Origin: Cutaneotrichosporon cavernicola
Taxonomy: Eukaryota; Basidiomycota; Tremellomycetes; Trichosporonales; Trichosporonaceae
Reading direction: 5' to 3'
Assembly (NCBI RefSeq): GCF_030864355.1
Contig: NC_083397.1
Coordinates: forward strand, 1,054,001 to 1,118,000
Length of the DNA stretch: 64,000 nt
Numbering within the stretch: the first letter of the stretch is position 1; each line of letters starts with the position of its first letter. Positions 14,881 through 45,713 of the stretch are shown here, in pieces. Under the pieces are notes generated by a model. The model did no database searches and had not been told where the DNA came from. It saw only the letters and a list, made by a program, of their open reading frames with translations. Both the position numbers and the translations under genes were made by a program.

Positions 14881-15062
14881 ATGTCGCAGCCCCAACCCCC
14901 CCGCCGCGAGTACTACTGGCAGAACGTCTGCGTTGGCGACCCTTTCGGCCGCAACCGCGGTGGTGTGTCCCCTCTTGGGCAGTGCTAACGGCAGACAAGT
15001 GCGTCGGCTACTGGAACTCGTACTCGTGGATTTGCAACTACTGCTCGAAGCGCATCCAGTAG
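14881..15062 (+). CDS. cysteine-rich microprotein 1 (CX12C-CXXC family)
   Basis: Exons 14881-14962 and 14995-15062 (32-base intron, GTGTGT to CTAACGGCAG) encode 49 residues. The family pattern is complete: Cys17 in CVGD, then GRNRG at the exon end, Cys30, an aromatic region, and CNYC (Cys41, Cys44) before a short basic tail. No signal peptide or membrane segment. I recognise no known family. The spacing C-x12-C-x10-C-x2-C could hold one zinc ion, which is inference. It is closest in plan to gene 2, 660 bases downstream on the same strand, which has the same length and the same spacing. Confidence 0.75.
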
Positions 15063-15722
15063 AGATAGAGATCATACATGAGCCTCAAGTGCCATAGAGC
15101 ATAAAGGAGAGAGGAGAGAAGGGATTTGGGGAGACGAGATGAACAGAAGTGAATGAGATGCTGCGGTGACCAACTGCTCGCCTCAGCACTGGCAGAACTA
15201 ACGATCGAAGCATGGCCCGTGCACGCGGTCGTTGTGGGTGGGTTAACCTCTGCGGGCTCTCGTGACCACATCGGCTTCTACCTCGCAGCCACCTCCAAAC
15301 CCGAACCCTCCGGCTCCGACGGAGGCCACGCGTGCGCCACATTCCAACCACCACCTACGTCCTACCCCACAGGCTCGCGCTGTCCTCTGCATCTCAGTCT
15401 GCCCACACGTCGTGGCAGAGTTCTCGCATCCCGACAAACCAGTCGTACTCACTGTCACTTGCAGCCGGTGCAAGTGGGTGAAATGCCGCGTTGCTGTGGG
15501 TCCGTGCGGCGTGGCAGAGTAGATCGAGGAGGATGAGGGAGTGGCAAGCCTCTGTTGGCGTATTGTGGCGTGTGTGCATGGGCGGACACCCTCCAGCCCG
15601 ACCACGCCGGCCTACACCCCCTTCCTTGCTGCCATTGTTCGCAATATATAGCAATGTTGGCCATCTCCATCCCCAAACCACCGATACGCCCACTCCCTTC
15701 AGCCTAACCTCAACACACCACA
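15063..15722. other. spacer between microprotein genes 1 and 2
   Basis: 660 bases. A plus-strand frame ending at 15522 contains several cysteines but has no ATG and lacks the family pattern, so I do not call it. The end holds the TATA box of gene 2. Confidence 0.35.
15645..15650 (+). promoter_or_regulatory. TATA box of microprotein gene 2
   Basis: TATATA about 78 bases before the ATG at 15723. Confidence 0.5.
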
Positions 15723-15903
15723 ATGCAAGACATCGTCCAGCCGCCTCGCCTGAACTTCAACCCTGGGCCATTCTGCACCGGTGAGATTGACGGCGACAAC
15801 GACGGTTGTGAGTAACCTATTGGAGGAGCTGACATCAGTCAAGTGCTGCCCGCGAGTCGGTGATCGTAACTACATTTGCGTGTATTGTGGGCACCAGCTC
15901 TAG
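15723..15903 (+). CDS. cysteine-rich microprotein 2 (CX12C-CXXC family)
   Basis: Exons 15723-15807 and 15839-15903 (31-base intron, GTGAGT to CTGACATCAG) encode 49 residues, exactly the length of microprotein 1. Cys18 in CTGE, GDNDG before the phase-1 intron, Cys31 (with an extra Cys32), then CVYC (Cys42, Cys45) and a five-residue tail. It has the same 12-residue spacing between the first two cysteines as all other members. No targeting signal. Function unknown. Confidence 0.75.
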
Positions 15904-16270
15904 CCAGGTGGCCGGAGGAGAAGAACGGAGAGCCGCTTTTGTCTCGCTGTAGTCCTCATTATGTGAAGTGTAATAACCCCACCGGCAGTCTTGTTAGCTC
16001 TCCACCTTTCAACTGTCAGAGGATCAGCAGACCAGGTCCTCCTCTCCCTTCAGATTCACCGCATCGCACGGCTGGATCCTTTGTCTTGATTTGATTTGGA
16101 ATGTAAGTGATTCAAGGTTCTGGAACCAAACAAGTTTGACAACCACGCGATCAGCACGTGTCGCCACCGGCGCAAATCCCCGAATCCCCGGCACGCCGGA
16201 ACGGTGCACCAGTCACCTGACGGCCATTACTCGCCACCTAACGGTCGACGACAACGATCACAGCGACAAC
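15904..16270. other. promoter region of the NDUFA12 gene
   Basis: 367 bases without a gene, ending at the ATG of the complex I subunit. No clear TATA box. Confidence 0.35.
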
Positions 16271-17461
16271 ATGAGCAGCCTCGCACGGACAATTCGGCAC
16301 GCACGCCAGGTCGGGCTCAAGGAGTGGTTCTACCAGCTCAAGTGAGTGCCGAATGCCCGAAACGCGATAGCTGGGCGAGGCTGACGACAGCACCATCGGT
16401 GACGCCAAGTCCGGTGTCTTCGGTACGTCGCGGGCGCGGAGACGCTAGGAGGCGGAGAGAGGTTGTGGGAAGGAGATGGAATGGGGAAAAGGTGTCGAAG
16501 GAAGAGTCGGGAAAGACAGGTGGGAGATGGACAGAGGGTAGGTGGAGGATCGGAGATTGGAGGTGGAGCTTGGCACTTGGTCGGCCAGCGGGCCGGCCCC
16601 ACGAGCGTTCGGGCTTGAGGCTATCCGAACGGCGAGTCGGAGATGCTCAAGACGCGATGCTCGCTGTGCTGGCTACAAGTTGGTCGCCTCATCGAGACGT
16701 GGGCTACCTCCACCGCCCGAGCTTGATCGCGAGACGCCGGTCATTTCCATCCCCTGGTCCTCCCCTCCTCCATCGCCGTCATCCGCCGTCTCCCCGGATT
16801 ATTCATTCTCTTCAACCGTCCCCTTTCCTCTGGATGCCCCGACCTCTGCACGCTGCTCCCACCACTGACCGCACCCCGAACAAGCTAACCGCAGTCGGCA
16901 AGGACCAGTTCGGAAACAGGTACTTCCAGCAGTACGACGCCAAGGAGGAGCTGCCTGGCCGCCAGCGCTGGGTGCTGTACGAGCAGTACGACTTCAACGC
17001 GTCCCAGGTCCCTCGCGAGTGGGCTTCGTGGCTCACCCACATCCGCATGGAGCCACCCACCAACGACCCCGTTGTGAAGGCGAGCGAGCAGCCGTGGCAG
17101 GTGCCGTACTTCGAGAACCTGTGAGTGAGGGTAATGCGGGATGGAATGAAAGAGGGAGGGAGGTATTGAGGGAGAAAGTTGGCCAACGAGGCAACGGGAA
17201 AGGTGTAGACTGAGTAAGGCTTTGTGCTGTACCAGCGATGAGGACGAGTTGGCTAGGCGTATGTGCAAGGTGCATCGCCCGCCAGCTTGCACCCATCTAC
17301 CTCCCTACTTGGTCTGGTAGATTGACTGCGCTTCCACGCCGCCGCAAAAATGTGGAACACCGGCTGATTGCAGCACCGGCACCCGCGGCCGCTTCAACAC
17401 TTACTCGACTGTCAAGCCCAAGCTCGAGGCGTGGGTGCCCAAGACCAAGCCCCGCGCATAG
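16271..17461 (+). CDS. NADH dehydrogenase (complex I) accessory subunit NDUFA12 (B17.2)
   Basis: A matrix-side accessory subunit of mitochondrial complex I. Exons 16271-16341, 16391-16422, 16895-17120 and 17374-17461 give 138 residues, the usual family size. Recognisable blocks are KEWFYQL, IGDAKSGVFVGKDQFGNRYFQ (split over three exons), RWVLYEQ, the PREWASWLTH motif with the family's W-x-x-W spacing, and a C-terminal block starting ENLTGTRGRF. All four exons join in frame, with 3' splice sites preceded by CTGAC, CTAAC and CTGAT. The second intron is 472 bases, long for this window. Its presence implies that this yeast has proton-pumping complex I. The matrix import signal is internal or N-terminal and not obvious. 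Confidence 0.94.
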
Positions 17462-17681
17462 GTCAATCTCATAAGGAGTATGCATAAGTAGACTGGGACG
17501 CGCGTGGGCGTTGTAGATGATGCGAGAGAGGGAGAGGGAGAAACATGTAAATGTCGGAGCACTTTGGTATGTGGGCGAGGAAGGGAGGTGCGGATCAATC
17601 AGGCACGACATACTCCCGTGGAGGTCTCGACTGTTGACATCGCGTCGCATTCCCCACTCACCATCATCAACTATCAACAAC

Positions 17682-20510
17682 ATGTCAACAGTTACGCCAT
17701 TTACGCCGCGACCACAGCGGCATAAGAACCAGTTAGGCCTCTCAGATGCAGAGTACAAGCGCGTGCGTTTGTTTCTCGACTGGTGGCGTGGCTGATGGCA
17801 GATGACAGGCACGCTCGCGTCGGTCCGGCGCGTGGGTGCCGCGGCGATTCGCGAGGAGCTAGAGGATACGCCAGACGCGGCTGCGGTTGCACTCGGTTAG
17901 CTGCATTGAGCTCCTATGAAGCTAACCGCAGCGGAGGTGCGCATCTCTGAGCGCGCGGAGCGCGAACGCGAGCGGCCAGATAGCCGACGGAGTGAGCGGC
18001 CAGCATCGAGGTATAACGTTGAACGTGACGCACGTCCATCATCGTCAGCCTCTGGGCACCGCGATCCACGAAGGAGTGTTGAAGGACATGTGCGCGAGCG
18101 TGATCGGGAACAAAGGGAACGGCGCGACGTGCGACGCGAGCGTGTGATCGACGTCGAGATCCAGCAAGTTGAGCGCGAGGCCCCCGTGCCCAGCAGCCCA
18201 GTGCCGCCTCGACGCCTTCTCGACGGCGTGCCGCTACCTGTACAGGAGGCGTGGGTGTGCGAGGACTTCATGTACCTTCTCCAGGGCGTCGAGGGGAGCC
18301 TCATAACATATGCGGAGGGGTACGACCCTTTGGACGCAGAGCAGCGGCTCAAGGGCGCACGATGGCGTGTCGATCCCAGCCTTGACCCGTCGCTCCTCTC
18401 GCTCGTTAACCGCCTCCTCCCACTCGCGACTTTCTTTACGTCTGTCGAAGCGTCGATCGAGCAACGCAACTCGCCCGAGTTTGGGATGGTATCTCATGCG
18501 CTGGGCAGTGGCATCCGAGGCATGCTCAAGGTGAGCGTCCAAGTCTGGGCTAGCTGACAACAGGAATACCGCGTCCTCACGGCCCAGCTCGAGTCGCTGT
18601 TCAACTCGTCCTCCACGTTCACTCTTCAGACACTCTACTTTCATCTCCACCCGACGCTACACACCATGTCACTGCTCAGTTCTCTTTGTCTCGCCCTCGA
18701 AACGGAGGACGACCCAGCTGAAAGCGAGTCGGACGACGACGATGACTTCGGGGGCATGGCGGACGAGCTCGGCCTCGGCGGCGAGGGTCTCAAGGGGCTC
18801 ATGAAGAACCTCAAGGCACAAGAGGCCGGAGGTTTGATAGGTGGCGGCGGGCCGGTGCTCGGCGGCGAGGTGCTCGGCATCATCTGCGAGCGGGAAGCAA
18901 CGATGAGCGGCGACCCAACCGCCACGACACTCCATTCCCAGCTCCTCCTGCACGCGTCGCAGCCATACTGCCGCATGCTCCTGCGCTGGATCACGACAGG
19001 ATACCTCTCCGACCCGTTTGACGAGTTCATGGTCAAAGAGAGCGGACACATCACCAAGGGCGTGTTAGAGAGCGACTACATCGACGAGTACTGGGAACGG
19101 CGGTACACGCTGCGCGACGGGTCGTCGCTCGCGGCGCCCAAGGGCGGGGGCGGCAAGGCGCCGTCCTTAACGGGCGCGGTCCCCGCCCCGCGTACCGGCA
19201 CGAATCGCCTGCCTGGCGGCGCGTGTATCCCCGCCTTCTTGCAGCCGTGGAAGCACAAGATCTTGCTCGCGGGCAAGTACCTGAATGTGATGCGCGAATG
19301 CGGGATCGACGTGAAAAAGGAGGCGGCCGGCGACGCCGACTGCCCCATCGTCATGAATGAGGCCAAGTTCTACCGCCGCATCGAGGACGCGTACATACAC
19401 GCCAACCAGAGCCTGCTCAAGCTGCTCGTCGAGGAGCAGGAGCTAATCCCACACCTCTGCTCGCTCAAGCACTACTTCTTCGCCGACCAGAGCGACTTTC
19501 TCACAAACTTTCTCGACCTCGCCAGCGGGGACCTCACACGTAAGGCTGCCAAGTCTGTGTCGATTGTCAAGCTCCAGTCGCTTCTGGATCTCGCAGTGCG
19601 CAACCCGGCCTCGAGTTCGTCCAATGACCCGTACAAGGACAATCTCAAGGTCACGATGGCGAGTCAGGGTCTGTACGACTGGCTGCTCAAGATTGTGTCG
19701 CACCAGGGCTCATCAGCCGAGGGAGACCTCGACTTTGGCCTCGGCGTCGACCTCGACAAGCCCGAAGGGACACTGATGGGTATCGATGCCGTTGCCTTTG
19801 ACTACAACGTCAAGTTCCCCCTCAGCCTCGTGATCAGCCGTAAGGCCGTGACCCGCTACCAGCTCATCTTCCGCTTCCTCGTGCACCTGCACCACCTCGA
19901 GGCTGGCTTGAGCGCCATGTGGCTCGACCAGAAGGGCGCTCTCTGGCGCGACACAACCGGCAACGCCGACATGGAGGCGTGGAAGGTCCGCGTCTGTGCA
20001 CTCCGAGCGCGCATGCTGGTGTTTGTGCGCCAGATGCTAGCATACGCAACCGGCGAAGTACTCGAGTCGAACTGGCGCGCGCTCGAGGCCAAGCTCGCAC
20101 ACGTCAGCACTGTCGACCAACTTATGCGCGACCACGTCGACTTCCTCGACACGTGCCTCAAGCAGTGCATGCTCACAAACAGCAAGCTGCTGAGCGTGTA
20201 CGCAAAGCTCATGCGCACCATCGCTGCCTTTGTGTCGTACCAGGACCGCTTCAGTCGCACGCTTACGGGTTTCCGCGCCGACCCACTCACAGAGAGCGAT
20301 GCGGCCAAGGCTGAGGCAAGATGGAACCTCCTCAAGAAGTTTGAGGTAAACTTCAACCACCACACGAATGTGAGTTGTTGTTGGCTTGATATCGCAGCTC
20401 GCAGCTCACACCAGCTCCACCTAGACGCGGTGACGTACCACGCTGGGTCAGAGAACGTTGCGCTCCTCGCCCTCGTTACGCGCCTGCATCAGACAACCAA
20501 GCGGATCTAA
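17682..20510 (+). CDS. gamma-tubulin complex component 2 (GCP2/Spc97 family)
   Basis: A core subunit of the gamma-tubulin small complex, pairing with GCP3 to nucleate microtubules at the spindle pole body. Exons 17682-17762, 17802-17895, 17932-18530, 18564-20369 and 20415-20510 give 891 residues. The GRIP1 region starts with PVQEAWVCEDFMYLLQG; the GRIP2-type C-terminal half follows. GCP2-like marks are IPAFLQPWKHKILLAGKYLN, the central LKHYFFADQSDFL block and the final HLDAVTYHAGSEN helix. The last intron (45 bases) was chosen because it alone restores that conserved end; it has a CTCAC branch site. An acidic linker sits near residue 300. The N-terminal 90 residues are low-complexity and Arg/Glu-rich. 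It lies 775 bases from the convergent kinesin gene. Confidence 0.93.
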
Positions 20511-21285
20511 GTACATGAGTACAGTACTAAACCGGAGGGGGTGGGGGGTTGCTTGCGAGCGCGAGTCCCATCGAGGCGCGGCGGCACAGCACAAGCAAAG
20601 TGCCGCCGTAACCGACGTCAGCGGCGCTCGCGCACAACGTGACACGCCGAGATCGGCGTCCCGTTTCAGGTGCTTGGTGACGCTGGTGTGACCATGCCGA
20701 GAGCATCACGCATCACGCGTGTCACCGCTCCAGGTCGTAGAGGTCAACATGATTTGGTGTATCAGTATGCAACAAACACTAGCCTGTCTTAGCAGCAAAC
20801 AATAGCCTGTCGGATCAGCCGACGCTGCCACCGACTTGTATCTGTAGTAATGTACTGTAAGAGTCCGTGTTTCACCCAAGTGCTGGTAGTGCATCGGATA
20901 CAGTACATTCCTCTCTCACAATCACATGCGCTACGACACTTTTCTAGTACGTCGCACCCATCACCATACATCGGTATGTCCACCTGTACAGCACTACTAC
21001 ACCGACGAAAACTACGTGGTATCACATGGCAGAAATTGGACTGGCCGTAAAACTAGTATGGTGCTGTCAAAACACTTCGAGACACGACAGGCCCGCACCG
21101 AGTTGGGGCACGGGCATAAAACCCAAGCACGAAAGAAAAAAAAAAACAGAGGCAAGTAATCTACAGCGCTGCTGCTGCCTTGCGGCGCAGGGCGCGACCG
21201 GCCGTATCGACGAGCCGGCGGACATGACAGGGTGCGAACACGGGACGGCACTGGCAAGTGGCAAATCCGAGATGGGATCACTAGA
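20511..21285. other. convergent 3' region between GCP2 and kinesin
   Basis: 775 bases between two 3' ends. It contains an A-rich run near 21135-21147. No gene is supported; a frame continuing from the kinesin gene into this region is interrupted by the proposed final intron. Confidence 0.4.
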
Positions 21286-28881: not shown

Positions 28882-31800
28882 TCACCGTCCCTCACGCCAA
28901 CGTCCTGACCGAGCGCCTGGTTCACCCAGCCTGAGCCGGAGCAGAAGCTCCTGCAGCTCAACAGAGCCTGGCGCGGCATGTTGTGACTCCACCCTATCGT
29001 CACCCTCTCCGTCGAGCAGGAGTTGGAGATCGGCCTCTTCAGAGGTCTTCTCTGTCTGCCGATCAAGGGATTGCGTCGTACTCGTGCGCAGGGAGAGTCG
29101 TTCCAACGCGTGCAGCTGTTATGTTAGTACACAAACCGTTTGCCGCCTTCAAGGAAGTGGCTGAATGGGATACCCGACAAACCCGGCGGACACTTACGAA
29201 GACAGCCTTCTTGTCAGACCAGTCCTGTCGGATCGTCGACACGCGAATCGCGGCGTTGGCCACGGCCATTGCTCCCCGTTCGACTTCGGCAACTGTCTTT
29301 GCCAGATCGAGGATGAGGGACAGCAGCGCCATGAGAATCTTGAGCGTGACTTGATGCCCAGGTTTGTCACTCAGCAAACATGCGCGAAGGACGCGGTTCA
29401 GGATGATGTTGTGATACAGTACAAGAGAGTGCGCCGACTGCAGCTGTGACAAGGAGCCAAGTTGGGCGATGCCCTCGTCCTCGGCGTCGCCGCCTGCCTC
29501 ATCGAGCTCAAAGTCAAGGTCCTCGTAGTCGTCGTCATACTCTGCCCCAGGCGTTATCGGACGCGAGTCGGTGCCCGTGACCATGGCCCCTCGACGGCGC
29601 AGCTTGTCCAGCCGCTGACGCATCACGTCCCAGTTGTGTCCGACAGCCGTATCGAGCACGTAGCGGCTCAAAGACGAAACGAACCACGACATCTCGTAGC
29701 GGAGGAACAGCGCCGTCTTCTCCGCTTCAGAGCCAGCGGGGAAGGGTCCATGCTGCGCTCTAGTTGGTAACCTAACTTGCGATGACATCCGGGTGTACGT
29801 GGCATCCGCACCTGTCTTCAGTGGGGAGGCGTCTGGTGGGGGAGAGGGTCGAAGTACGGAGAAGTACAGCAGCCGCAGGACAGCGTCAACACGCGACAGC
29901 CGCAGCAGGAAGTTGTGTATTCGCTGGTACTTGTCCATGATGTTGGTCGGGAGCAGCGTGGCAATCGCGGTCGGCGGCGAGTAAACCAAATAGAGAAAGT
30001 CAAGTGCTTCAATGGCCTGTGGATTGAGCCAGCGAGCTCGTCGCCCGCCCTCGGTTTCGTCAGGCAGGGAGCGAACGGCGAACGAGACGCGATCCTCGAG
30101 GTTCTCCCAAACTGGTCCCTTGTTGCACAGGTCGGCGATCTCGTCATCAAGCAGCGCCGTGCGCAGGGCGTACGCGAGCTCAGAGCCACCCGGGGGCCAC
30201 TTCGTGCGATCGCTAAGGCCGAGCCCGAGGCCAACTCCCCAGCTGCTTTGAGATGAGTCAGAACCTCCACCATCTAGTCCCAATCGAGCGCGAGTACGAG
30301 CACGGCGTCCCAATCCTAATGCGCCTCCAGCCCCGGCTTGGTCCTTGCCGAAGAGAGCCGCACCTACCCGTTTCGAGAACCCGGCATCACCGCCAAGCCA
30401 GAACGCCTTGAGAACATCGAGGTGATCCAGGAAGTGCAGGTCGTCGATGTAGAGGGAGACGAGAGAGCGTGAGATCAAGGCCGCGTGGGCTAATAAAGGC
30501 GCTAGGAGGTGTGACGAAATGTATAGTTCGAGAGTGGGCGAGTCACTTGGGAGCAGAGGCTCATCCAGGCCGGAGTGGCGCTGGACGAACGCGTCGAGCT
30601 CATCGAGTGGTGCTGGGACCCACAATGAGGCAGAGTTCTTGGATCCCATGTGGCCACCTGGAGGGAGGTTAAACACGGCCCAAAAGTCGGCGTCCTTGTC
30701 TTTGCCAGTAGTGGACTTGGATGGTGACGATGGGGCACTTGGATCATGGGAGGAAGGTGGTGTTGGTGTGTACACCGTGCGGCGCCGAGAATGGAGACTT
30801 CCGATCGAGGATGCCGAGATCGTGCGAGCTCGGAGCGCCGAGGCACCCCGCCAATAATCGATCTCGCGCTGCACGCGGCGAGCGTGTGAACGCAAATCGT
30901 TAGGCGGACTGGGATAAATCAGAGTAAGTCGCCTTTTGACCTACTCGTCAACGCGGCCCCAGCCCCACGACGCGCGGATTGGCCAGTCGGTCGAGCATAG
31001 CGGATGGAGACCCTTTGACGCTTCCCGCAACGCGCGCAGGCTGCGACCCGCTTCAAACAGCGCACGCCGGTCGTCGCGGGGCACGAACGCAGGCATGCGA
31101 CGGGCAGAGAAGGTGTACTCCCATCGTACACCGTACCCATCAGTGGGAGGAAGGGCCTTGCGCGTGATGCCCAGGTCGACCCACGGTTGCGCCTCTGGGT
31201 CTTCGCACTCCTCCGTGCGCGAGTCGTCCTCTAGCCCAATCCATTGGTGCAAGAGGTCAAGGAACGGCTTCGAAGCGTGTGAGAGAAGGTAAGCTAGTGA
31301 GAGAACGACATAGCTGCGCTGCTGCTCAGTGGTGGCGGTGGAGATATGTGCAACAAGGTGTGCGTGTAGGTGTGTGAGTACGGAAGCGGGCCGCGCTGGA
31401 AGACCGATCGGTTTGACCGTGTCGATGGGCTAATGTCAGCGATGACGCACGCCAACGTACCCAGCACATAACCTCGCACAGTGTAGCTGTGAGCTCACGA
31501 GTGCCAGCCAAAGCCGCGTCGCGTCGCAGCCATGGCGCACTCGGGTCAATCTCTTGAAACGTAGCCTCAACTCCGGCGGCGAGCCGGTCCTTGACATAGG
31601 TCAAGATAGTGGAGAGAGTGTAGAAAAGGGCGTGATGCGTGGGAGTGAGTGGTCTGCTGTCAGCGCGGAAATTTAAGGAAGGTGGCAAGGCAAGGCGGCA
31701 GGGCGGAGGAGGGTGGGAACAGCCCCCGGACAGCGGCCACTCACGTTGAGCTGTGCTCCGACACGATGATCTCGAGGCGCCGGACAGCGGTCCCGATGGC

Positions 31801-32573: not shown

Positions 32574-33371
32574 GAGTGCTGCTGGGCAATGATGGCAATG
32601 GTGGTGAGGAATGCGAGGAAGGTAGGCAACAACAACACGCGGCGACGCGTAATGTGGAGGTACAAGCGGAAGTATTTGGAAGAGTGGGGCAGACCGGGAG
32701 GTACTGGGGTTGGTGAAGGTTGAGCTGCTCTTGCTCGTTCACTCTCCCCATCACTTCGAGCATGATCGCATGGTCACGCAACCTGTCCTGCACCTTTGCA
32801 AGTGATCACTCTTCTGTCTGGCGGCCAGTCTGCCGATTGTCTGGTAACTCGAGCTGCGTGGTTGGCGAGGAGCGCAGGTTCCAGCCCAGCCCAAAGGGTA
32901 GCATGGAGAGGGTCATAGTCACCGTCCTCAACCATAACTCGGGGGATCGATGGCCTGCCGCGGCGGCGTGGTTGGGCAATTGACAGCGCTCGGGTTGGAA
33001 GGCTTACTGTACCCACCACAGGACATCCCGTGAGCGCCCTAGTTGGCCCTTGGCGCGAGGGTGGGACAAGGGCGCCAAACTGAGCTGTGTCCACCCTCTT
33101 CGTGACTTGGTATTCATCATCAGCTTCCTCCCCATTCTGCTGATCAAATCTTCCACCCTTGTATCCACTTGTCGAACTTCCATGTAGTGACTAACCTCAG
33201 CACCCCGAAACGCCGGGTGGCCCAAGCGGGTGCAAGAACGGAAGGGTCCTGTGATACTAGGCCTAAGCGAGTCTGCGACTCGCCTCACTTAACCTCTTCA
33301 CTTCGCTTCCTCTCCTCTGCTAACTGGTCAACCCACATCCCACTCCACGATCCTTCCACAAGCTTGCGTTG
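32574..33371. other. divergent promoter region
   Basis: 798 bases between the GCP5/6-like gene and the Ser-rich gene. No gene and no clear TATA box. Confidence 0.4.
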
Positions 33372-35779: not shown

Positions 35780-36323
35780 GTACGGGTGAGGGCGGGAGCA
35801 GGAGTTGGAGGAAGAGCAGTGGTGAATGTGTGGCAGTGATGATGGGGGCGGCGTTGAGGCCAGCTAAGGAGGCGCGGCGGGCTACAGTCTGAGCAAAAGG
35901 TCGCCGCACAAGAGGTGCCCCGGCCCTGCATGCGGGAAGAGCGAGTGAGCAAACCCCAAGATGCGAGCAGCAACAGGAGGAGCCAGCGCGGGACGCTGAA
36001 GAGAATGGTTTTAGCCCTGCGGTTGAGGTAGGACAAACACGAGGAGGGGAGGAGTTTGGGGGAGGAAGGTTGTATGTCCGTTTACGAGCTGCGATGAGTG
36101 AGATTCACGTGTGTTACTACTCACAGCTTCTAAGCGTCAGTGTTTTCACTGGAAACAGTTCTAAGGCATTGTTTATTGAAGGTCCTTCTGACACCACTAT
36201 CGATGAGAATGAGTCTTGTTGTTTCCACCTCATGGTCTCCATGGCCGCGGCCACCATTGGCTATATAAACCTCTCATCCGGGCAGTCTCGACCTCTCTCC
36301 TACCACACACACCTAACGTAACC
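35780..36323. other. intergenic, upstream of microprotein 3
   Basis: 544 bases with no gene. The right end carries the TATA box of microprotein gene 3. Confidence 0.4.
36262..36268 (+). promoter_or_regulatory. TATA box of microprotein gene 3
   Basis: TATATAA 62 bases before the ATG at 36324, the best TATA match in the microprotein set. Confidence 0.6.
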
Positions 36324-36495
36324 ATGGTACACGACTATACGACTCATCTCTGCCCTGGTGCCACCAACGGGCAGAACATTGGCAGTGAGTCTTCTGCTTG
36401 CCCGAGCTACAGTAACCCCAGAACCATGCAGCATCGTCTTCCCCCAGGGCCCGTTCGGGCCGTGGGTCTGCCAGTACTGTGGCATTCAGTACTAG
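36324..36495 (+). CDS. cysteine-rich microprotein 3 (CX12C-CXXC family)
   Basis: Exons 36324-36384 and 36422-36495 (37-base intron, GTGAGT to GTAACCCCAG) encode 44 residues. Cys10 in CPGA, GQNIG at the exon end, Cys23, then CQYC (Cys37, Cys40) and a four-residue tail. A later acceptor after CCCCCAG at about 36450 would break the frame, which supports the chosen one. It is a close paralogue of microprotein 4: both share CPGA, NGQNI, a Cys-x-Ile-Val block and PQGP-x-GP. No signal peptide. Function unknown. Confidence 0.75.
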
Positions 36496-36721
36496 CCAAG
36501 TAGAGCGGATATTGCATCAGAAGTAAGAGCGCTTTGCATGCAGACTTGGGGTTGATTTGGCGATGTAGACGGTTGAGGGTGGATAAACAAGATGACACTG
36601 CCACATGCGAGTACTTGTTTATCAAGCTACCATACTCATCATCGGGCCCAGCCTTGAAGACCATAAATGGTTCGGATCCTGTCTCAGTCTCTCCACTCAC
36701 TCTCAACACTCCCATCTCAAG

Positions 36722-36893
36722 ATGGACCGCGAAGTCAACCGCCTCTGCCCAGGAGCCGATAACGGCCAGAACATCTTCAGTGAGTACCCTGTGTAACCGC
36801 TCGTGCTTCTTGACATCAGAGTCTTGCTTCATTGTTTGGCCGCAGGGCCCCAACGGACCCTCTCACTGCAAGTACTGCAGGATCAGCTGGTAG
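36722..36893 (+). CDS. cysteine-rich microprotein 4 (CX12C-CXXC family)
   Basis: Exons 36722-36779 and 36820-36893 (40-base intron, GTGAGT to TTGACATCAG) encode 43 residues: Cys9 in CPGA, GQNIF, Cys22, CKYC (Cys36, Cys39), ending in RISW. It is the tandem paralogue of microprotein 3, 226 bases downstream in the same orientation. A CATAAATG about 60 bases before the ATG may act as its TATA element. Confidence 0.75.
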
Positions 36894-38022
36894 CGCACCA
36901 GCCCAAGGGCCAAGTGGTAGCAAATCAAGTTTGGATGTATTGTGGCAATGCCTAACACCTGTGGCTCTGATCTATTCGACCAAAGTCAATTTCCCGTACC
37001 ATCCCAACCTCATACAAAATACTTACGCCTCTCACGGCGCTGCATCCTCAATCTCCCGCCGCCGACCTTCAATGTCTTCCCCTTTTGTCGTCATACGATG
37101 ACGCGTCGTGGTAGTTCTCCACACGTGTCCAACATATTCAAATTTCATCACTGCCTTGGTTCCATCTTCCTGCTCCTTCATCATCCCAAGACGCCGCGCA
37201 GCAGAGGACTAAGTGCTTGCGTGATGTCGACATCGTTTCCGGGCCAAACAAAATACAACATGCCTTGGCGGTATTGATTAGACTGATCCTCTGGCGAGCC
37301 GATGACACGGTGGGTCGAGCTCTTAAAATATCCGGGCAGACCAGAGCTGGAGCGTGTCACCGACATGGCTGTAATTAGTTGCTGGGGCGATCCTGATCCT
37401 ATGCGCCCTCCACTTTCTGATCCAATACCATTTTCCAGGCGTGAGCAGTGAATCATCCACGGTGTAACAATGGGAATGGGACTCGGCCTCCTGGAACTCT
37501 TGGATATCGGCACGTCGACAATGCCTTCCGACTATGAGATCTGCAAAACAGACCCACTGGCACTAGGGCTGGACGATCCCGAGCTGGACGACCTCTCGGA
37601 GCCCAAAATTTGAAGCCGGTCTACACGCTGATTGATGTCGACTTGGCCGTTGCGGCCGTGTTCCGCCTCTGCCTACACACAACGCTCCCAGCCTCGGTGG
37701 GTTTACCCTTAGGATCCAGCTGATATCCAGGACGGCTTGTCGTGGTCTGACTGGCGCCAGCGGAAAATTGCGGTCGACGGACAGCGTATAGATCTTGTTC
37801 CCATAACCCTCCAGATTGATGCATAGATGCCCTCAGTTGATGGGGATGTGCGAAAGAACGGGACTCACACTCGTAAAGAGGTGTGAGTGCACTTCGCACT
37901 CGTACAGAGGTGCGAGTGCACTTGTCGCCCCTCTTACTCCTTCAGCTGCCATAAGTCTGTCGCGGATGGGTTTAATACCCTCACAAGTCGCATAATCCAT
38001 TTCCTGATATCTTCCACATACC
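36894..38022. other. intergenic with inverted tandem repeat
   Basis: 1.1 kb. A 47-codon frame starting with ATG at 37470 (+), ending in an acidic tail, is not family-like and is too short to support alone. The notable structure is the tandem hairpin repeat at 37864-37923. Confidence 0.4.
37864..37923. repeat. two tandem 29-base repeats, each able to form a hairpin
   Basis: Copy 1 begins at 37868 and copy 2 at 37897, differing at a few positions. Copy 1 has the 7-base inverted pair CTCACAC (37864-37870) and GTGTGAG (37881-37887). Copy 2 has GCACTCG (37896-37902) and CGAGTGC (37913-37919). The differences between copies are compensating, so both stems stay paired. Confidence 0.85.
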
Positions 38023-38275
38023 ATGGACCTCCGCTTTCCGATTGACTATCACCCAAAGCGCCGCCAGTGGGAACCATTTTGCGCTGGCGACGGCAAGGGT
38101 AGCGGCTGGGACCGTAAGTTTCGCATAGGCAGCACTCATACTAGGCTACTGCGAGGCCGAGAAGTGGACAGACTCGTCGGGACTGCTGGTTTGCTCCGTG
38201 CGCCGCCGGCACTTGATGCAGGTTGTCATCGGATGGGACGGCATTGACGTCTACCTCGTGTTCCGCAGCAAGTAA
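38023..38275 (+). CDS. divergent, extended microprotein 5 (CX12C family)
   Basis: Exons 38023-38113 and 38145-38275 (31-base intron, GTAAGT to CATACTAG) encode 73 residues, the longest member. Cys20 in CAGD, GSGWD in place of GxNxG, Cys33 twelve residues later and Cys47, but the position of the final cysteine is Arg50 (CSVR), so the CXXC pair is lost. A 23-residue extension with a VVIGWDG core follows. The acceptor is the weakest of the set, with no good branch site. It may be a functional offshoot that no longer binds metal, or a decaying copy read into downstream sequence. Confidence 0.6.
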
Positions 38276-38897
38276 ATTACGGAACTACATTTAAGCCATA
38301 GGGGATGTGAACTAGATCATTGATGGAAAAATCTAGGTGGTAGGGAGCGGGGCGCGAGAACAATTACTGTAGCGCTCACATAGCCCAACTGTCCCTCCAC
38401 GTTGCTATCGCTTCGGCTTGATGGAGACAGGTCGGGAACTGATTTCCCATTGGGGATCCAGAGGGTTGCACCCACCATACGATGTGAGATCTTCACACAC
38501 CTACACAGCCTAGCCACTCGGGACTCGACGCATTTCTTGTTTAATCATGGCATTAACATCAGGAGCGAGCTGGGGAGATCCATTGTGAACCATTGGGGTG
38601 GGGCGGCCAGTGTTATCTTGGAATACCAATGGTTCGTCGATATTAACAATGGATCCCCCCATTACCAAACACTTTCGTCCGCCTTGACGAACAACTCAAC
38701 GCCGCTGACTTCACAACATCTCGCCCTCGCTGGCGGTCTCCCACGTCGCGTCGAACGTGTTCAAAACGGCTGGCGACCCCTCCAACGAGTCCTCACTCTC
38801 AGTTCTTCAACTTTCTCTTCAGCTTTCTCTTCAGCTTCCTCTCCAACTCCCTCTCCAACAACACCACCAAGATAATTCCTACCTGACCGCAAACAAC
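38276..38897. other. spacer with CTTCA/CTCC-rich run
   Basis: 622 bases without a gene. A pyrimidine-rich stretch of near-repeats (CTTTCTCTTCAG-like, about 38808-38860) lies just before microprotein gene 6 and may be its promoter or leader. Confidence 0.4.
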
Positions 38898-39099
38898 ATG
38901 ACCGTTTGGGTTCCTCCTCCCACTTGCAAGGGCGACGTCTACGGCACCAACACTGGTAGTAAGTACATCTCCCATTCTTGTCCTAACGACAGACGCGTGC
39001 CGCGGTGGTAGCCCTCCCAACGGCATCGGCGGATGGGACGTTTGCAGCTACTGCAAGCGCATCTTCCAGATCTGGGCCCTCACCGCACTCCCCGAGTAA
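38898..39099 (+). CDS. cysteine-rich microprotein 6 (CX12C-CXXC family)
   Basis: Exons 38898-38958 and 38993-39099 (34-base intron, GTAAGT to CTAACGACAG) encode 55 residues. Cys10 in CKGD, GTNTG before the intron, Cys23, a Gly-rich loop, CSYC (Cys38, Cys41), then a basic KRIFQ start and a longer hydrophobic tail than most members. The tRNA-Ser gene follows on the opposite strand. Confidence 0.75.
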
Positions 39100-39300
39100 G
39101 CGCTCAAGATGCGGCATTCAACTGCTGTCAACCCAAAGCTCAGTTTCAACGGCCAATCCAGTATATTTCTGAAAGTAGTAAAGAGGAGAGAGATGCAAAA
39201 GGGGTAGGGATGAGATACTCAGTTAGAGCGCGGACGACACTGATGACCTGCAAGGAGTCGCTCCCGCTTGGACCCATCTCCCTGCGCTGTTTGCTAAAAA

Positions 39301-39395
39301 CGATGTTGACCTGATTCGAACAGGCGCTCCCGAAGGAAATTGATCGTAGAACAGTCAATTCTAGTCAATCGCGTTAACCACTCCGCCACAACACC
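39301..39395 (-). tRNA. tRNA-Ser(AGA) with a 14-base intron
   Basis: On the minus strand the acceptor GGTGTTG (39395-39389) pairs with CAACATC (39308-39302) through one G-T pair, and the discriminator is G at 39301. The anticodon AGA is at 39362-39360; a 14-base intron (39358-39345) follows position 37. The long variable arm (about CCTTCGGG) and the T loop TTCGAAT are typical of serine tRNA. A TTTTT run (plus-strand AAAAA at 39296-39300) immediately follows as terminator. Confidence 0.92.
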
Positions 39396-39994
39396 CTTGT
39401 TGTTTGTGACGTCAAAGACGGGGTAGACCTCGAGCACCTTGGTGTCGAGCTTGAAATAACAATTTTTAGCCACGGACGAAGGGGTACCGATAGCTTATGA
39501 TTAGGCTTTCAGTCTGGTGGAAGTTCATGCCGTCGCAGGGAGGCGACTGGGTGAGTTCTGATCGCCCAGAACGAGGGTTCGAGAGAGGCACACAAGGCAA
39601 TGCCCCCGAAGTATGGATGTGGATGTCCTTCGACTTGTCAACATGGCAGCTGGTTGAAACCTATACATCTGTCCGCTAGCACGTGGATCTCAAACAGGTC
39701 ACTGAGCCTACTAGACGCCCTGAAAGGCTGAATACGAATCGTACCGAATATGTGAGCAACGGCCCATCGGCAAGTGATGAGGACAAGGCTCAACCATCCC
39801 GACAATGGAGAAGCAACTGTCCGGTTACGTACATACAGCCGGACCATTGAAATGTGGAGCCCTCCTATCGCCCATCAACCCACCCAAGCCGGGTATGATC
39901 CCGCAGAGGAGTGCACCAGCCGCGGAGGGCCGCATCCGAATGTCAGCCCCTGACCCAATCCCAGCACCCATTGCCAGAGTATACAGTAAACGGT
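39396..39994. other. intergenic with a possible coding relic
   Basis: 600 bases. Next to the tRNA, the minus strand at about 39396-39456 reads as a short GC-ending, protein-like fragment without start or partner exons. Nothing else is supported. Confidence 0.35.
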
Positions 39995-40849
39995 CTACAA
40001 ATATACCACCATGGGACCCGAGTCTCGTTGATGGGAGGCATTGACAAGCTGCGAAGAAGCCCTCCCGTTCCCTCTCTCTACGCTTCGCCCAAGAGCCTGA
40101 GCCATCCGTGCCTTGTACCGAATTGTTCCGGCCGTGATATCTCGTAAACGCCCTGGTGGTCTTGCAATCATGTTAACTTGGTCGTTCGCCCACGCCTCCC
40201 AGTCGTCGTAAATCAGCTTCTCGGTACCTCGACTTTGGTGCATGTGGCCGAACACGACCAAAGGCGGGCGCACGCGCCACAGTTCCCGCAGGAGATGAGG
40301 GCAGCCCTTACCCCCTTCGTCGAGATGGCCACGCGGCGGACCATGTACAATGAAGAGATCCACATCGTCCGGCACAGTGTTGGTCCACACGTCCGTGGCC
40401 CTAGGATAATTGAACGCCCATGTATAGTACTGAATTGCGCCGCCCTTGACCGACTCGTACTTGGGCGTGAGTGGGCTCCCGTATACCTTGAGTGAGCGGC
40501 CGAGATGCGGGAACGATACGGTGGTGGACTCGTTGCACAGATACTTCAGGTCGTGCCATTCGAGGTCCTCCAGCCGCCCGCCCTGCTGGAACTTGGGGTT
40601 CTCGGCGATGTAGGATGGGTCAAGGATCCGGTCGTGGTTGCCGCCGATAACGATCTTGTGCGCGTGAGGAAGCGAGCCGAGCCAGTTGAGCTGTCCCTGC
40701 ATCTCGTCGAACTTGCCGTAGTTGGCCATGTCGCCAGCATGGACAAGGAGGTCTCCGTCAGGTACATCGGGACACTGGAGATGGGTGTCGGAGACGCAGA
40801 CAATCTTGATCTTATTCTTGTCCCCGTCCCCTTCGGCGATGTCGGTCAT
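39995..40849 (-). CDS. calcineurin-like metallophosphoesterase (MPPED/UPF0046 type)
   Basis: A single-exon gene of 284 residues starting at the ATG at 40849. It has the full set of dimetal phosphoesterase motifs in order: SDTH (20-23, Asp21 and His23), HAGDMANYG (Asp-containing motif II), GGNHD, HGPP and GHMHQ. The MPPED1/MPPED2 class cleaves small phosphodiesters such as cyclic nucleotides in vitro; the natural substrate here is unknown. The C-terminal 35 residues (Ser/Arg/Gly-rich) extend past the domain. It sits inside the microprotein cluster but shows no sequence link to it. Confidence 0.9.
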   Translation of the reverse strand: MTDIAEGDGDKNKIKIVCVSDTHLQCPDVPDGDLLVHAGDMANYGKFDEMQGQLNWLGSLPHAHKIVIGGNHDRILDPSYIAENPKFQQGGRLEDLEWHDLKYLCNESTTVSFPHLGRSLKVYGSPLTPKYESVKGGAIQYYTWAFNYPRATDVWTNTVPDDVDLFIVHGPPRGHLDEGGKGCPHLLRELWRVRPPLVVFGHMHQSRGTEKLIYDDWEAWANDQVNMIARPPGRLRDITAGTIRYKARMAQALGRSVERGNGRASSQLVNASHQRDSGPMVVYL

Positions 40850-41700
40850 TGCGTGATCTCGAGGGCCACTCGGAGAGAATGTCGTCTTCGATAAGGTCGA
40901 GGGGGTGTGCTGGAGGGAAATTGGTGCATGATGATGCTATGTCCTGCCTGTAGTCACGTGAAATCACTGGTGAGCCTGATATCTCGGAGCCGAGGGGCGG
41001 TGCCAGGATGCATGCTTCCGAACAGTCCTTGCATGACGACGTCAGCGCCACGCAATCCATGCCGAGCTGTGCATTCATCCACAATGCATACCGCGATCAT
41101 CTGAAAGTTTGGGGATGTCGAGAACCTCAGCGGTATTCTTTAATCACGTGTCTCATACCAAGTGGCCCAACTGTGGATGTGGGGTAATTCTCTGGGCTCT
41201 GGCGTCCCAAACGGGTTGCGCCGGATGTGCCTGGCCCAAACGGTGGCGACACACACCGACGACGCCTCAAATTGTTAGGGGAACCGGCTCGTGACCGGTT
41301 CGTGACCGGCTCCTTGACCGCATTGACCGGTGATACAGAACTACCAGATCAACCACTCAGATATCGGAACTACCGCCGCTGCTATTGTCCTCGCCCCTTC
41401 CCCTTTCACAGCGTAAGAGCGTTGCAGGTTTGAGGTGCAGCCACCGAGTTCAACGTCAGAGCAGACGTCAGTGTCAACCCCTGCTGTCAGTGAGAAGCTC
41501 GCCGAAGACAGCGTCCGTTCGGCGAGTAATGAGAGAAGCTAAGGAGTGTTCGGGCGCGGGGGTTGGTGGGGTTCGCACCGATCCCGTGGGGTTAGGGCTA
41601 CGAGACGTTAGTCGGTACTGCCTCTCCATGAGTTATAACCGGTCGATGGGTCAGTGGTCGACCCCACCTCTCATCCCCGCAACACTCTGCACTCACCAAC
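40850..41700. other. upstream region of the phosphoesterase and microprotein 7
   Basis: 851 bases with no supported gene. It has four TGACCG boxes spaced 10-12 bases apart (about 41292-41331) and a TTATAA element close to microprotein gene 7. Confidence 0.4.
41633..41638 (+). promoter_or_regulatory. TATA-like element of microprotein gene 7
   Basis: TTATAA 68 bases before the ATG at 41701. Confidence 0.4.
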
Positions 41701-41860
41701 ATGAAGATTGTGTACTGCGACGGTAGCGTCGTCGGTGTCAACCGCGGGAGTGAGTGGACCAAAGACATGGCTGACCGTAGACGATTGTTGGCCGCACATG
41801 CGGGACGACGGTGCGGTCGTGTGCCGCTTCTGTCGCCGTCCGGTTGGGAACAAGGCGTGA
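41701..41860 (+). CDS. cysteine-rich microprotein 7 (CX12C-CXXC family)
   Basis: Exons 41701-41749 and 41781-41860 (31-base intron, GTGAGT to CTGACCGTAG) encode 42 residues, the shortest member. It is almost nothing but the motif: Cys6 in CDGS, GVNRG, Cys19, CRFC (Cys31, Cys34), then a basic tail RRPVGNKA. It therefore defines the minimal unit of the family. No targeting signal. Confidence 0.75.
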
Positions 41861-42468
41861 CGTGCCAGGGAGTGGTCAAGTTCCATAGCCTGATGCAGTT
41901 GTGAGCATGTGAGCGGCTTTGGCTCTTGGAACGGAAGCATGCTTGTCCTGTTATGCTGTTGTTCTCAACTTGAGGGACCGCCTTGTTCAATTGTGTTTCG
42001 GCACATGCAAAGGACGACGTGACGGAAACCCCGTTCCTCAGCCACCGACGATTCGAAGCGGCGCGTGTGTGGATCGGGACGTCGACGGCGGTCCAACCGC
42101 ACTGCTGGTTTGGCATGTGTTGATTCCGATGCAGCATTTGATAGCGCACGGACACCTTCGCGTCATCGAGGCGACCTGTATCGACTCGCACTTTCCACTC
42201 TCGGTATCTACTCCTTGGCAGGATGCCGACGTGAGGGTGAAGCAACCCCTCATGTGATAGTGCGAAGAGGTGCCGCCACCACACACTTGGACGACTCGAC
42301 CTCCTTTATCAGATACCTTCCGCACATCTTGCCAGAGACTCCGCAAGCTTCCCCCGCGCGGCCAAGAGCTTTTAAAGACGAGAGGGCGCATCCTCTCCCC
42401 ATCCTCACCGTCGCTCTGAATATCCTCACTACTCTGCCAACGTACCACAACCTCGATTCCCAACCAAC
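41861..42468. other. spacer between microprotein loci 7 and 8
   Basis: 608 bases without a gene. TTTTAAA at about 42370-42376 is a possible TATA-like element for the next locus. Confidence 0.35.
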
Positions 42469-42703
42469 ATGAAGACCACCACCCCCGCACCACTCCTTTA
42501 GGAGCGCAGCTCGTGTAGTGGCGACCTTACTGGAGGCAACCGCGGATGTGAGTCGAGTTCGAGGGTGGTGGCAAACGAGTCAATGGGAGGTGGAGGTGGC
42601 TGTCGGACGACGCCGAAGCACAAAAGCGCTGACCATAGTCAGCTGCGTTCCCACCTTGCACAACGGGATGTGGTTGTGCATGTATTGCCAGAAGCACTTC
42701 TAG
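42469..42703 (+). pseudogene. microprotein 8, family member with an in-frame stop
   Basis: Exons 42469-42547 and 42639-42703, with a 91-base intron (GTGAGT to CTGACCATAG) at the family position and phase. The reading from the ATG meets TAG at codon 11 (42499-42501) and then continues in the same frame through the whole motif: CSGD, GGNRG, a cysteine exactly 12 residues after the first, and CMYC before the final stop. No donor lies between the ATG and the TAG, so splicing cannot remove it. It is a pseudogene by a single nonsense codon, a read-through gene, or a sequencing error. The conserved remainder suggests the break is recent. Confidence 0.7.
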
Positions 42704-43260
42704 TACTAATCGCTGTAGTCTACGACTGTGCGAGAAAACTATTTACAATATAGAGCACAAACATGTAACACTAGTTTAAAACACAGCGGTTCTGAGGATT
42801 GGATGGGCTCATGTGGCGGGCTAATTGGTGGCGATGTACTGTACTGGTAAGTGTACTGATGAGCGTCTGACATTGCCCTCATCATCTTCAAGTGATTAGA
42901 TCTCTGTCAGTTCCGTCACTGATTGTCAGTCCTGATCGCCTTCTTTCCGTTCAGAGGTGGGACAACTTGCTTCAGAGTGTGGCGGAGGATGAGATACAGG
43001 GTCCAGTCACCAAACATGATCGTTTTCAACCATCACATATGAGCGGTGTCGACACAATGTCAACCATCGACCATCATCTCCTTGGCATCAACAGCGCAAA
43101 CAATTGCTGAGCATTGCCGCAGCATCATCAGCTAAGGCTCTAGCTGTATATCATGCTTGCCGGTTGAGTGTCGGCCGGCTCCTCATCCCTCACAATAGAA
43201 CCAGCCTCCAGTCAACCGACCGGCAACTCTGCTCGACCGTCACTTCGCTCCACCACTACA
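42704..43260. other. spacer between microprotein loci 8 and 9
   Basis: 557 bases without a gene. GTATAT at about 43145 is a weak TATA candidate for gene 9. Confidence 0.35.
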
Positions 43261-43456
43261 ATGGGTTTCTTTAGAAACAAATTCACTCGCAGCAAATCCT
43301 GCAACGTCAGGGTCTGCCAAGGCGACACCTTGGGCAGGAATCGTGGCCGTACGTGCTCTTTGTGACGATTGGCTAAACCCAGAACCCTGCGTGCCGATGT
43401 ACATGTACTACGCTTGGTGCTGCGCCTACTGCGGGCGAGCCATGCCATCACCATAG
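43261..43456 (+). CDS. cysteine-rich microprotein 9 (CX12C-CXXC family)
   Basis: Exons 43261-43348 and 43383-43456 (34-base intron, GTACGT to CTAAACCCAG) encode 53 residues. The basic, aromatic N terminus MGFFRNKFTRS is unlike other members; Gly2 followed by basic residues could allow myristoylation, which is inference. An extra Cys14 precedes the motif, then Cys19 in CQGD, GRNRG, Cys32, a Tyr/Met-rich stretch and WCCAYC (Cys43 and Cys46 in register, Cys42 extra). The tail is GRAMPSP. Confidence 0.75.
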
Positions 43457-43858
43457 AGCCGACATAATCAGGAATCCTCTTGGGGTGGGCTTTGCCTGTA
43501 GCCATATGGACCATGCAATTTCTTGACAATTGGAATATGTCCTTGACCGGGCATTTCTCTTAGGGAGAGTGTGAGGCTCGCCAAATATGCCTAGTATGAA
43601 CGGATTTTCCATCTGTCTACAAGAACAAAGATTGTCTGTACCCAAGGGCAATCGAGGGAGTTGTGGCGTTCGTGTATGGACACTACATGCACTGGTGCGA
43701 AGGTGTGAACCAGCAACTAGGGCGCGAGTCCGCTGTGTGTCACCTCTATCATCGCACACCTGCCTCTTCCCCATCACTAGCACTTCCCTTTAACTTGACC
43801 CCCATCCTGTCACTTGCAGCCCCACCATCGTACCTCTCTCTACATTATTTCAACAACT
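43457..43858. other. spacer between microprotein loci 9 and 10
   Basis: 402 bases, no gene seen. Confidence 0.35.
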
Positions 43859-44056
43859 ATGACATACCTCCACAGCAACGGCCTCTCGAACGGTCGTCAG
43901 CCGGCCAGGTGTATGGGTGACAGTTACGGCCAGAACAACGGCAGTGAGTAGGGTACGGTTCACGTTAACTCGGGTTATTGCAAGTGGTTCGTCGTCAACG
44001 ACAAGGTACGGTGTGCATTCTGCCTTCGCCCTTTCTGGGGTCGTCGGTGGTTCTAG
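43859..44056 (+). pseudogene. microprotein 10, family member with a broken splice acceptor
   Basis: Exon 1 (43859-43943) has CMGD and GQNNG followed by a phase-1 GTGAGT donor. Exon 2 (43974-44056) restores the family frame: a cysteine exactly 12 residues after the first and CAFC, then a long basic tail. The 3' end of the intron between them reads GTTAACTCGG: a good branch site, but GG where AG is needed, as if a single A to G change destroyed the acceptor. Without splicing the frame ends in TAG at 43949-43951, after 30 residues. It is a probable recent pseudogene, unless a GG acceptor is tolerated. Confidence 0.65.
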
Positions 44057-44694
44057 GCCTGGTGAAGCAGTGGGACGCCATCACAGTACTGGGAAGACAA
44101 TCGAGAGTGGAAGCGGTGGACTATGATTCAGGTTCTCGAACGATCCCATCGGGGTTAAGAACCAGGACGGGCCCAGATTCTGAGAGAACGGAGTTGACAG
44201 AACTGGTGCTGGCTGGCTTATAGACATCACAAATCCAAGACCTGTGAATGCTAGTCCGCTATAGCAATCGCGTTATCAAATGGATCTTGCGCAGTTAAGC
44301 AGTAGCTTCACAGGTTATCGTAGATTGAGAATGGGCCTGGGAGTAGGTGGCGCTTGAGACCGACGCGTGGATGGACTGGGTGCAAGTGTCGCGACTAAGA
44401 GACTCAGTGAGACAAACGATCAGGAATAGAGAGGGCTCCAATGTACAGGTTGGGCGGATGTACTGGGCGTGGCGCCACGGCAATACCACAAATTAACAGC
44501 ATCCCTGGTCTTCCTGACAATTATGCACATATCTGCTAGCGGCGGACCAGACGCCGGTCTACTAATGCCTCTAACGGCAGGGAAAGAAAACTAATACATT
44601 CATGCTATGAACAACAACAGGAGAGAATGATACAGTCGACACGATCGCAGGCTGACCACGAGACAAGCGCCGTCGTTGTTTTGGAAGACTAGGA
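44057..44694. other. convergent spacer after microprotein loci 10 and 11
   Basis: 638 bases between two 3' ends. No gene is supported. Confidence 0.4.
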
Positions 44695-44859
44695 CTAGGT
44701 AGGGCCGAGGTACTTGCGGCAGAACCAGCAGACGTAGACTCCACGATCATCGCGGATGGCAAAGCACCAGCCTGGGATTAGCTTAGTCAGCTCGGATAAC
44801 TTACCCTTGGCGTTGTTGCCACTGAGGTCACCCGCACAGTCTACGATGGAGGTGGGCAT
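44695..44859 (-). CDS. cysteine-rich microprotein 11 (CX12C-CXXC family, minus strand)
   Basis: Exons 44859-44805 and 44771-44695 (33-base intron, GTAAGT to CTAATCCCAG) encode 43 residues. Cys8 in CAGD, GNNAK before the intron, Cys21, then CWFC (Cys34, Cys37) and a RKYLGPT tail. It is the only member on the minus strand. An unspliced reading stays open and would insert 11 residues, so the intron is inferred from the family rule and the branch site. Confidence 0.75.
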   Translation of the reverse strand: MPTSIVDCAGDLSGNNAKGKLSELTKLIPGWCFAIRDDRGVYVCWFCRKYLGPT

Positions 44860-45618: not shown

Positions 45619-45713
45619 GGCAAGGTAGGAAAGTGGTTAATCCGCTAGTTTCAGGTTGCAGACGCATCCCGCGCTAGTCCTCCGGGGCATGGGTTCGAGT
45701 CCCATTCTTGTCA
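45619..45713 (+). tRNA. tRNA-Leu(CAG) with a 16-base intron
   Basis: Acceptor GGCAAGG (45619-45625) pairs with TCTTGTC (45706-45712), with two G-T pairs, and the discriminator is A45713. The D arm is GGA...TCC; the anticodon stem is CTAGT/GCTAG with anticodon CAG at 45652-45654. A 16-base intron (45656-45671) follows position 37. A type II variable arm and the T arm ATGGG-TTCGAGT-CCCAT complete the fold. Confidence 0.9.

Follow-up and report, generated by a model that had tools for sequence, protein, structure and literature searches.

The DNA analysed here, a 64,000-nt window of the 20.2-Mb genome of the cave yeast Cutaneotrichosporon cavernicola (C5:1054001-1118000), raises the question of what is encoded by a set of tiny, cysteine-rich, intron-split loci, and whether they are genes at all. 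The original prediction, made from the sequence alone, was of a dispersed family of eleven such loci that matched no known family. All eleven were recovered and 18 more were located elsewhere in the genome, making the family genome-wide and about three times larger than proposed (29 loci). Our best reading, to which we assign a probability of about 0.6, is a joint one: the loci are genuine genes that encode proteins of one family, and their products form a diversifying set of intracellular, zinc-ribbon-like microproteins that serve as binding modules. The zinc, the fold, the location and the binding role are what we infer. Bare numbers below are window positions; those preceded by a contig name are genome coordinates.

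Eleven window loci share one gene plan and one intron position

Reading of the sequence together with explicit splice-site modelling verified the proposed start at all eleven window loci (Table 1), which encode 42-73 aa once spliced (n=11). Each locus has an ATG and a C-x-G-x3-G-x-[N/G] segment of fixed length, followed by a GT donor that, in 11 of 11 cases, splits the codon right after the N-x-G turn in phase 1. The intron is 30-40 nt long in ten loci and 91 nt in that at 42469. Exon 2 then supplies one residue and a cysteine, a variable stretch, C-x-[Y/F]-C (10/11) and the stop codon. The motif plan originally put forward stands for C-x-G and the middle cysteine, each found in 11/11 loci; the final C-x-[YF]-C is present in 10/11, the exception being 38023, and three loci (38023, 42469 and 43859) are irregular. 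At 43859, the position that would preserve both the frame and the middle cysteine reads CGG, and an AG 11 nt downstream breaks the frame. An upstream exon for 42469 was dropped, there being no ATG between 42255 and its own start. The 36722 locus has a second in-frame ATG 39 codons upstream of the near one adopted in the model, and at 44859 the unspliced frame is likewise open. No further members were found within the window.

A strict spliced grammar was defined as an ATG-open exon 1, Asn in the turn, a GT...YAG intron, and Cys, Cys or His, Cys and Cys at the four conserved positions. It passes 8 of the 11 window loci, excluding the three irregular ones. Over 264 kb it yields 23 matches (8 in the window and 15 in 200 kb elsewhere), compared with none in 20 dinucleotide shuffles; the 23 do not represent a genome density, because the 200 kb was picked for holding pattern hits. 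One common offset serves all 23 introns, with 21 donor positions allowed and the script favoring that offset when several fitted.

Table 1 Family members and tRNA genes of the window, with exon and intron boundaries in window positions
Feature	Product or size	Position	Strand	Strict grammar	Remarks
Member 1	49 aa	exon 1 14881-14962; intron 14963-14994 (32 nt); exon 2 14995-15062	+	accepted	
Member 2	49 aa	exon 1 15723-15807; intron 15808-15838 (31 nt); exon 2 15839-15903	+	accepted	
Member 3	44 aa	exon 1 36324-36384; intron 36385-36421 (37 nt); exon 2 36422-36495	+	accepted	tandem sister of 36722; dN/dS pair
Member 4	43 aa from near ATG	exon 1 36722-36779; intron 36780-36819 (40 nt); exon 2 36820-36893	+	accepted	dN/dS pair
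Member 5	73 aa	exon 1 38023-38113; intron 38114-38144 (31 nt); exon 2 38145-38275	+	not accepted	divergent; identical to P0001
Member 6	55 aa	exon 1 38898-38958; intron 38959-38992 (34 nt); exon 2 38993-39099	+	accepted	
Member 7	42 aa	exon 1 41701-41749; intron 41750-41780 (31 nt); exon 2 41781-41860	+	accepted	P0002 similar
Member 8	interrupted	exon 1 42469-42547; intron 42548-42638 (91 nt); exon 2 42639-42703	+	not accepted	in-frame TAG at codon 11
Member 9	53 aa	exon 1 43261-43348; intron 43349-43382 (34 nt); exon 2 43383-43456	+	accepted	donor GTACGT
Member 10	55 aa if spliced at CGG end	exon 1 43859-43943; intron 43944-43973; exon 2 43974-44056	+	not accepted	no AG at conserved place
Member 11	43 aa	exon 1 44859-44805; intron 44804-44772 (33 nt); exon 2 44771-44695	-	accepted	
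tRNA gene (Rfam)	95 nt	39301-39395	-		inside nine-gene cluster
tRNA gene (Rfam)	95 nt	45619-45713	+		beside nine-gene cluster

The family extends over five contigs

Searching the genome with turn-plus-donor patterns, supplemented by neighborhood scans, gave 29 loci holding 30 domain copies: nine on C1 (one with two domains), one each on C2 and C4, 12 on C5 (the 11 of the window and one more) and six on C7. The same intron is carried by 29/29 loci. The first pattern produced 21 matches versus seven for a reversed control, and 17 of the 21 are members, with L006, L012, L013 and L014 judged non-members. A second donor form produced eight matches versus eight for its control; four are members, one of them new, and L045, L046, L047 and L049 were rejected. 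Since the first pattern detects 16 of the 27 loci of the contiguous regions and elsewhere just one member (on C4), our guess for the family total is little over 30. The 29 loci are a lower bound, the regions fetched being those with a pattern hit. A search of the organism's own proteins with one member recovered only that member.

The domain can be written C-x-G-x3-G-x-N-x-G-x2-C-x(10-14)-C-x-[YF]-C. An alignment of 29 copies, leaving out the thirtieth (C1:2547584, with its 38-residue linker), has the first cysteine, the first glycine and the third cysteine in all 29, and the turn Asn, the second cysteine (His in the exception) and the fourth cysteine in 28 each. The first two cysteines are separated by 12 residues in 28/29 copies and by 13 in one, and the first and fourth span 28-32 residues. 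The mean pairwise identity of members is about 30%. Each protein has at least three cysteines, mostly 4-7 in 34-92 residues, and the net charge ranges from -20 to +7 without a cationic trend. More than one in-frame ATG is present in several members, and the C2 member has no start codon within the 301 bases examined; where the start was seen, members have introns of 29-91 nt and fewer than 100 codons.

Three members have unusual architectures. That at C1:2945102 and 2945245 (L034; also L010) has two tandem domains, the second with a stretch resembling an intron at the same codon, which ends in GAG and through which the frame is open. The C1:2547584 member (- strand) contains a 38-residue acidic repeat (GESDTT-like) between the second and third cysteines and has a net charge of -17. 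In the C4:2101153 region (L015, - strand) lies a member of 47 aa whose loop is longer by one residue (MTCAGHHETGENKG...) and which has extra Cys at its C-terminus.

Selection on the protein, deposited gene models and relatives

When the tandem pair 36324/36722 is compared in the spliced frame, synonymous changes number 16.3 over 22.3 sites and non-synonymous changes 21.7 over 85.7 sites (pS 0.73, pN 0.25; Fisher p 8.5e-5 on rounded counts), and the two other frames have no synonymous excess (pS 0.26, pN 0.38-0.39). This shows purifying selection on the protein in this pair.

Protein databases were searched by a method that depends on shared five-residue words and on predicted proteins, and the following counts carry that scope. 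Two of the 29 loci have exact models: P0001 (CcaverHIS002_0503810) is letter-for-letter the splice model of 38023, and P0004 (CcaverHIS002_0111080) that of C1:2946068. These two identities are the ground for assigning the genome to C. cavernicola. Four lie inside two fused models, P0003 joining the neighbors C1:2948143 and C1:2947479, and P0007 joining C7:66348 (its exon 1) to C7:65877 (its exon 2). No model was found for the other 23, in agreement with the expectation that gene callers would miss the family. According to PMC10568926, the deposited annotation was made with BRAKER and RNA-seq hints.

Annotated relatives were found in C. spelunceum (P0005) and Cutaneotrichosporon sp. HIS471 (P0006 and P0009, of which P0009 resembles a cut-short relative of P0004). 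P0004 and the C. spelunceum P0005 are 95% identical at residues 50-92 and 71% over the whole protein. The homologs anticipated in related genomes thus exist at the protein level; as to their having the same intron, P0005 and P0006 contain no intron-encoded residues at the junction, from which a shared intron in these species is likely. The JGI protein P0002 is similar to 41701, and its extra junction residues look like a read-through intron. These word-based searches gave no organism-named matches outside Cutaneotrichosporon, and the family is seen so far only in that genus, plus P0002.

Comparison with known families

The absence of a recognizable family was corroborated: scans with Pfam, NCBIfam and PHROGs returned only sub-threshold matches, which differ between members. 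Cys_Knot_tox (PF17486) matched 2/24 members weakly (best E 0.0085), and P0004 (16 bits) and P0005 (11.1 bits) did not reach its cut-off of 27. zf-CHCC (PF10276) matched 1/24 members, below the gathering score (E 0.73, 10.4 bits vs a cut-off of 27), and 0/7 of the database proteins. A sequence search of the PDB with a 45-place profile returned 26 sequences at E up to 10. Most of them, 2m0d included, cover only the C-x-[YF]-C end; the matches that extend over the greater part of the profile are zf-CHCC chains, namely 8qby E 0.14 (places 3-42), 7ar7 0.41, 6x89 1.4 and 7a23 1.5 (places 9-42). Profile-profile comparison with zf-CHCC, represented by eight sequences of which four are partial, scored 22.6 with a probability of 79%, and all 300 Cys-fixed column shuffles scored lower (maximum 21.5). 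An earlier 26-row profile, one row of which was one residue short, had scored 20.5 versus a maximum of 18.3 in 60 shuffles.

Shared with zf-CHCC are a similar size (the Pfam model has 37 places), a C-x-G start, a glycine-rich loop and a C-x-Y-C end. C-x-G is found in 29/29 copies, but the fourth place, Gly or Asp in zf-CHCC, is Asp in 19/29, and the end is C-x-Y-C in 17/29 and C-x-F-C in 8/29. The family differs in the Asn of its turn, in its approximately 30 stand-alone copies, in being far under the Pfam cut-off and in the second ligand: in zf-CHCC this is the G-H-P His, which follows the first cysteine by 9-10 residues, whereas the family has Cys (28/29) or His (1/29) at another spacing, 13 residues after it. 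Membership of zf-CHCC fails because the second ligands do not align. AlphaFold models of P0004 and P0006 place, with low confidence, a hairpin between the second and third cysteines that ends at the third.

Small secreted cysteine-rich fungal proteins are short, cysteine-patterned, varied and clustered. The family is so too, but unlike them it has no clear signal peptide, as judged in 27 proteins (two of the 29 loci were left out) by simple hydropathy of the first 30 residues rather than by a trained predictor. Another likeness is to the C(P)XCG single-domain zinc-finger micro-proteins of Haloferax volcanii, which PMC11241148 describes as having fewer than 70 residues and dozens of copies in one genome; in contrast to these, the family has a single C-x2-C, its other pair being C-x12-C, and an intron in every gene.

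A zinc-ribbon-like reading and its alternatives

In the reading that we favor, each gene would encode one small domain (two at one locus) composed of a C-x-G start, a glycine/Asn turn, the second cysteine, a short beta hairpin and C-x-[Y/F]-C. The four cysteines would bind one putative zinc ion. The third and fourth (C-x2-C) would follow the hairpin as a zinc knuckle, with the loop of glycine, Asp and Asn standing in for the usual first C-x2-C knuckle. The one copy with His for the second cysteine counts in favor of such a site. Because there is no clear signal peptide, the proteins would act inside the cell, and because the scaffold is fixed while nearly everything else varies, and the clusters hold both intact and damaged copies, they may be small binding modules for protein or nucleic acid targets with diversifying surfaces. 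A further step, which we regard as unlikely, is that they make up an intracellular repertoire of about 30 microproteins on one zinc-ribbon scaffold. Each surface would recognize its own target, be it a mobile element, a virus or a self/non-self partner, and the birth and death of copies within the clusters would renew the set.

Several observations weigh against the zinc-ribbon-like reading. The selection test is one pair. At 38023 the fourth cysteine is replaced by Arg (the end reads C-S-V-R) and the turn Asn by Gly. Nearest relatives lie in the same cluster for 9/26 (random mean 4.45, p 0.045, with one row one residue short), so that relatedness is weakly local and a tandem origin of each cluster is weakly supported. 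The likeness to zf-CHCC is weak in the PDB search (E 0.14 to 1.5) and concerns a family picked after it had appeared as a hit, its second-ligand His is not aligned with the second cysteine, and the best PDB E-value, 0.0059 for 2m0d, comes from a different zinc finger that matches over a short C-x2-C stretch. Mean pLDDT is 62 for both AlphaFold models and rises to about 70-80 in the first alone, within its domain. According to PMC11241148, AlphaFold2 is unable to say, for tiny proteins, if a metal is held by four cysteines. The top N-terminal hydropathy, 1.90, occurs in C7:67428, in a short stretch (residues 7-15) that holds His and Lys and immediately precedes the domain. Finally, 11/26 single-domain proteins have 5-7 cysteines, which would also suit disulfides.

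This last point, with the small size, cysteine richness, variety and clustering of the members and the weak Cys_Knot_tox matches, is what speaks for leaderless disulfide-bonded peptides, exported by another route and acting on competitors like defensins or knottins. We consider this unlikely: apart from the lack of a clear signal peptide, the shortest members (34-36 aa) have their first cysteine at residue 3, C-x-[YF]-C and the Cys-to-His swap fit a metal site better, and the charges show no cationic trend. That the members are divergent but true NDUFS6/zf-CHCC proteins tied to mitochondrial complex I would account for the zf-CHCC chains among the PDB matches, the profile score that beats every shuffle, and the common C-x-G and C-x-[Y/F]-C; we find it very unlikely, given a single sub-threshold Pfam hit, the missing G-H-P ligand, about 30 varied copies, which is unlike a complex subunit, and a separate zf-CHCC gene in the same genome (C4:2472610, 35.7 bits).

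Less likely still are relics, in which an exon-intron cassette spread by duplication and is now decaying without function. The stop in 42469, the absent AG acceptor in 43859, the cysteine lost from 38023 and a mean identity of only about 30% would all fit decay, but purifying selection in 36324/36722, the conservation of P0004 in C. spelunceum, strongest over the domain region, and the retention of each scaffold cysteine in 28-29 of 29 copies do not. Least likely of all, and barely credible to us, is a role in buffering metals or thiols, as in small metallothioneins. The proteins are suitably small for it, with at least three cysteines each; a usual content of 4-7 cysteines speaks against it, and the fixed Gly/Asn positions and fixed spacing point to a fold rather than to a buffer.

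Surroundings of the window loci

Both tRNA genes of the window (Table 1) probably bear an intron, because both are 95 nt long. The idea of tRNA genes as duplication hot spots was dropped, with two in the window and one in 140 kb of other regions. A calcineurin-like phosphoesterase frame lies mid-cluster at 39998-40936 (- strand). Other neighbors with Pfam matches, at 16111-17121, 18558-20507, 29066-30940 (- strand), 51716-52786 and 57725-59872, are NDUFA12, two gamma-tubulin complex components, a PRMT fragment and an SPT23/MGA2-type DNA-binding protein, none of which accounts for the family. Between members, 37866-37925 holds a short near-tandem repeat, gaggtgtgagtgcactt / gaggtgcgagtgcactt. 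A search of 27 upstream regions for a shared promoter element gave mainly pyrimidine- and CA-rich words. Such words are ordinary in fungal leaders, and we therefore make no regulatory claim.

Significance

The suggestion that the family had never been described needs tempering. No paper on it was found among titles and abstract openings of the open-licence literature, a scope outside which most subscription journals fall, but a few members are already deposited as hypothetical proteins. A multigene family has apparently been largely missed or fused by an annotation that used RNA-seq hints, apparently because its genes, where their start was seen, have fewer than 100 codons and are split by an intron of 29-91 nt. 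The motif together with the intron position provides an exact signature for finding such genes, and spliced microproteins may hide in other compact fungal genomes. If zinc binding is confirmed, a minimal ribbon 28-32 residues long would be formed by C-x12-C...C-x2-C, and we could match its spacing to no known family.

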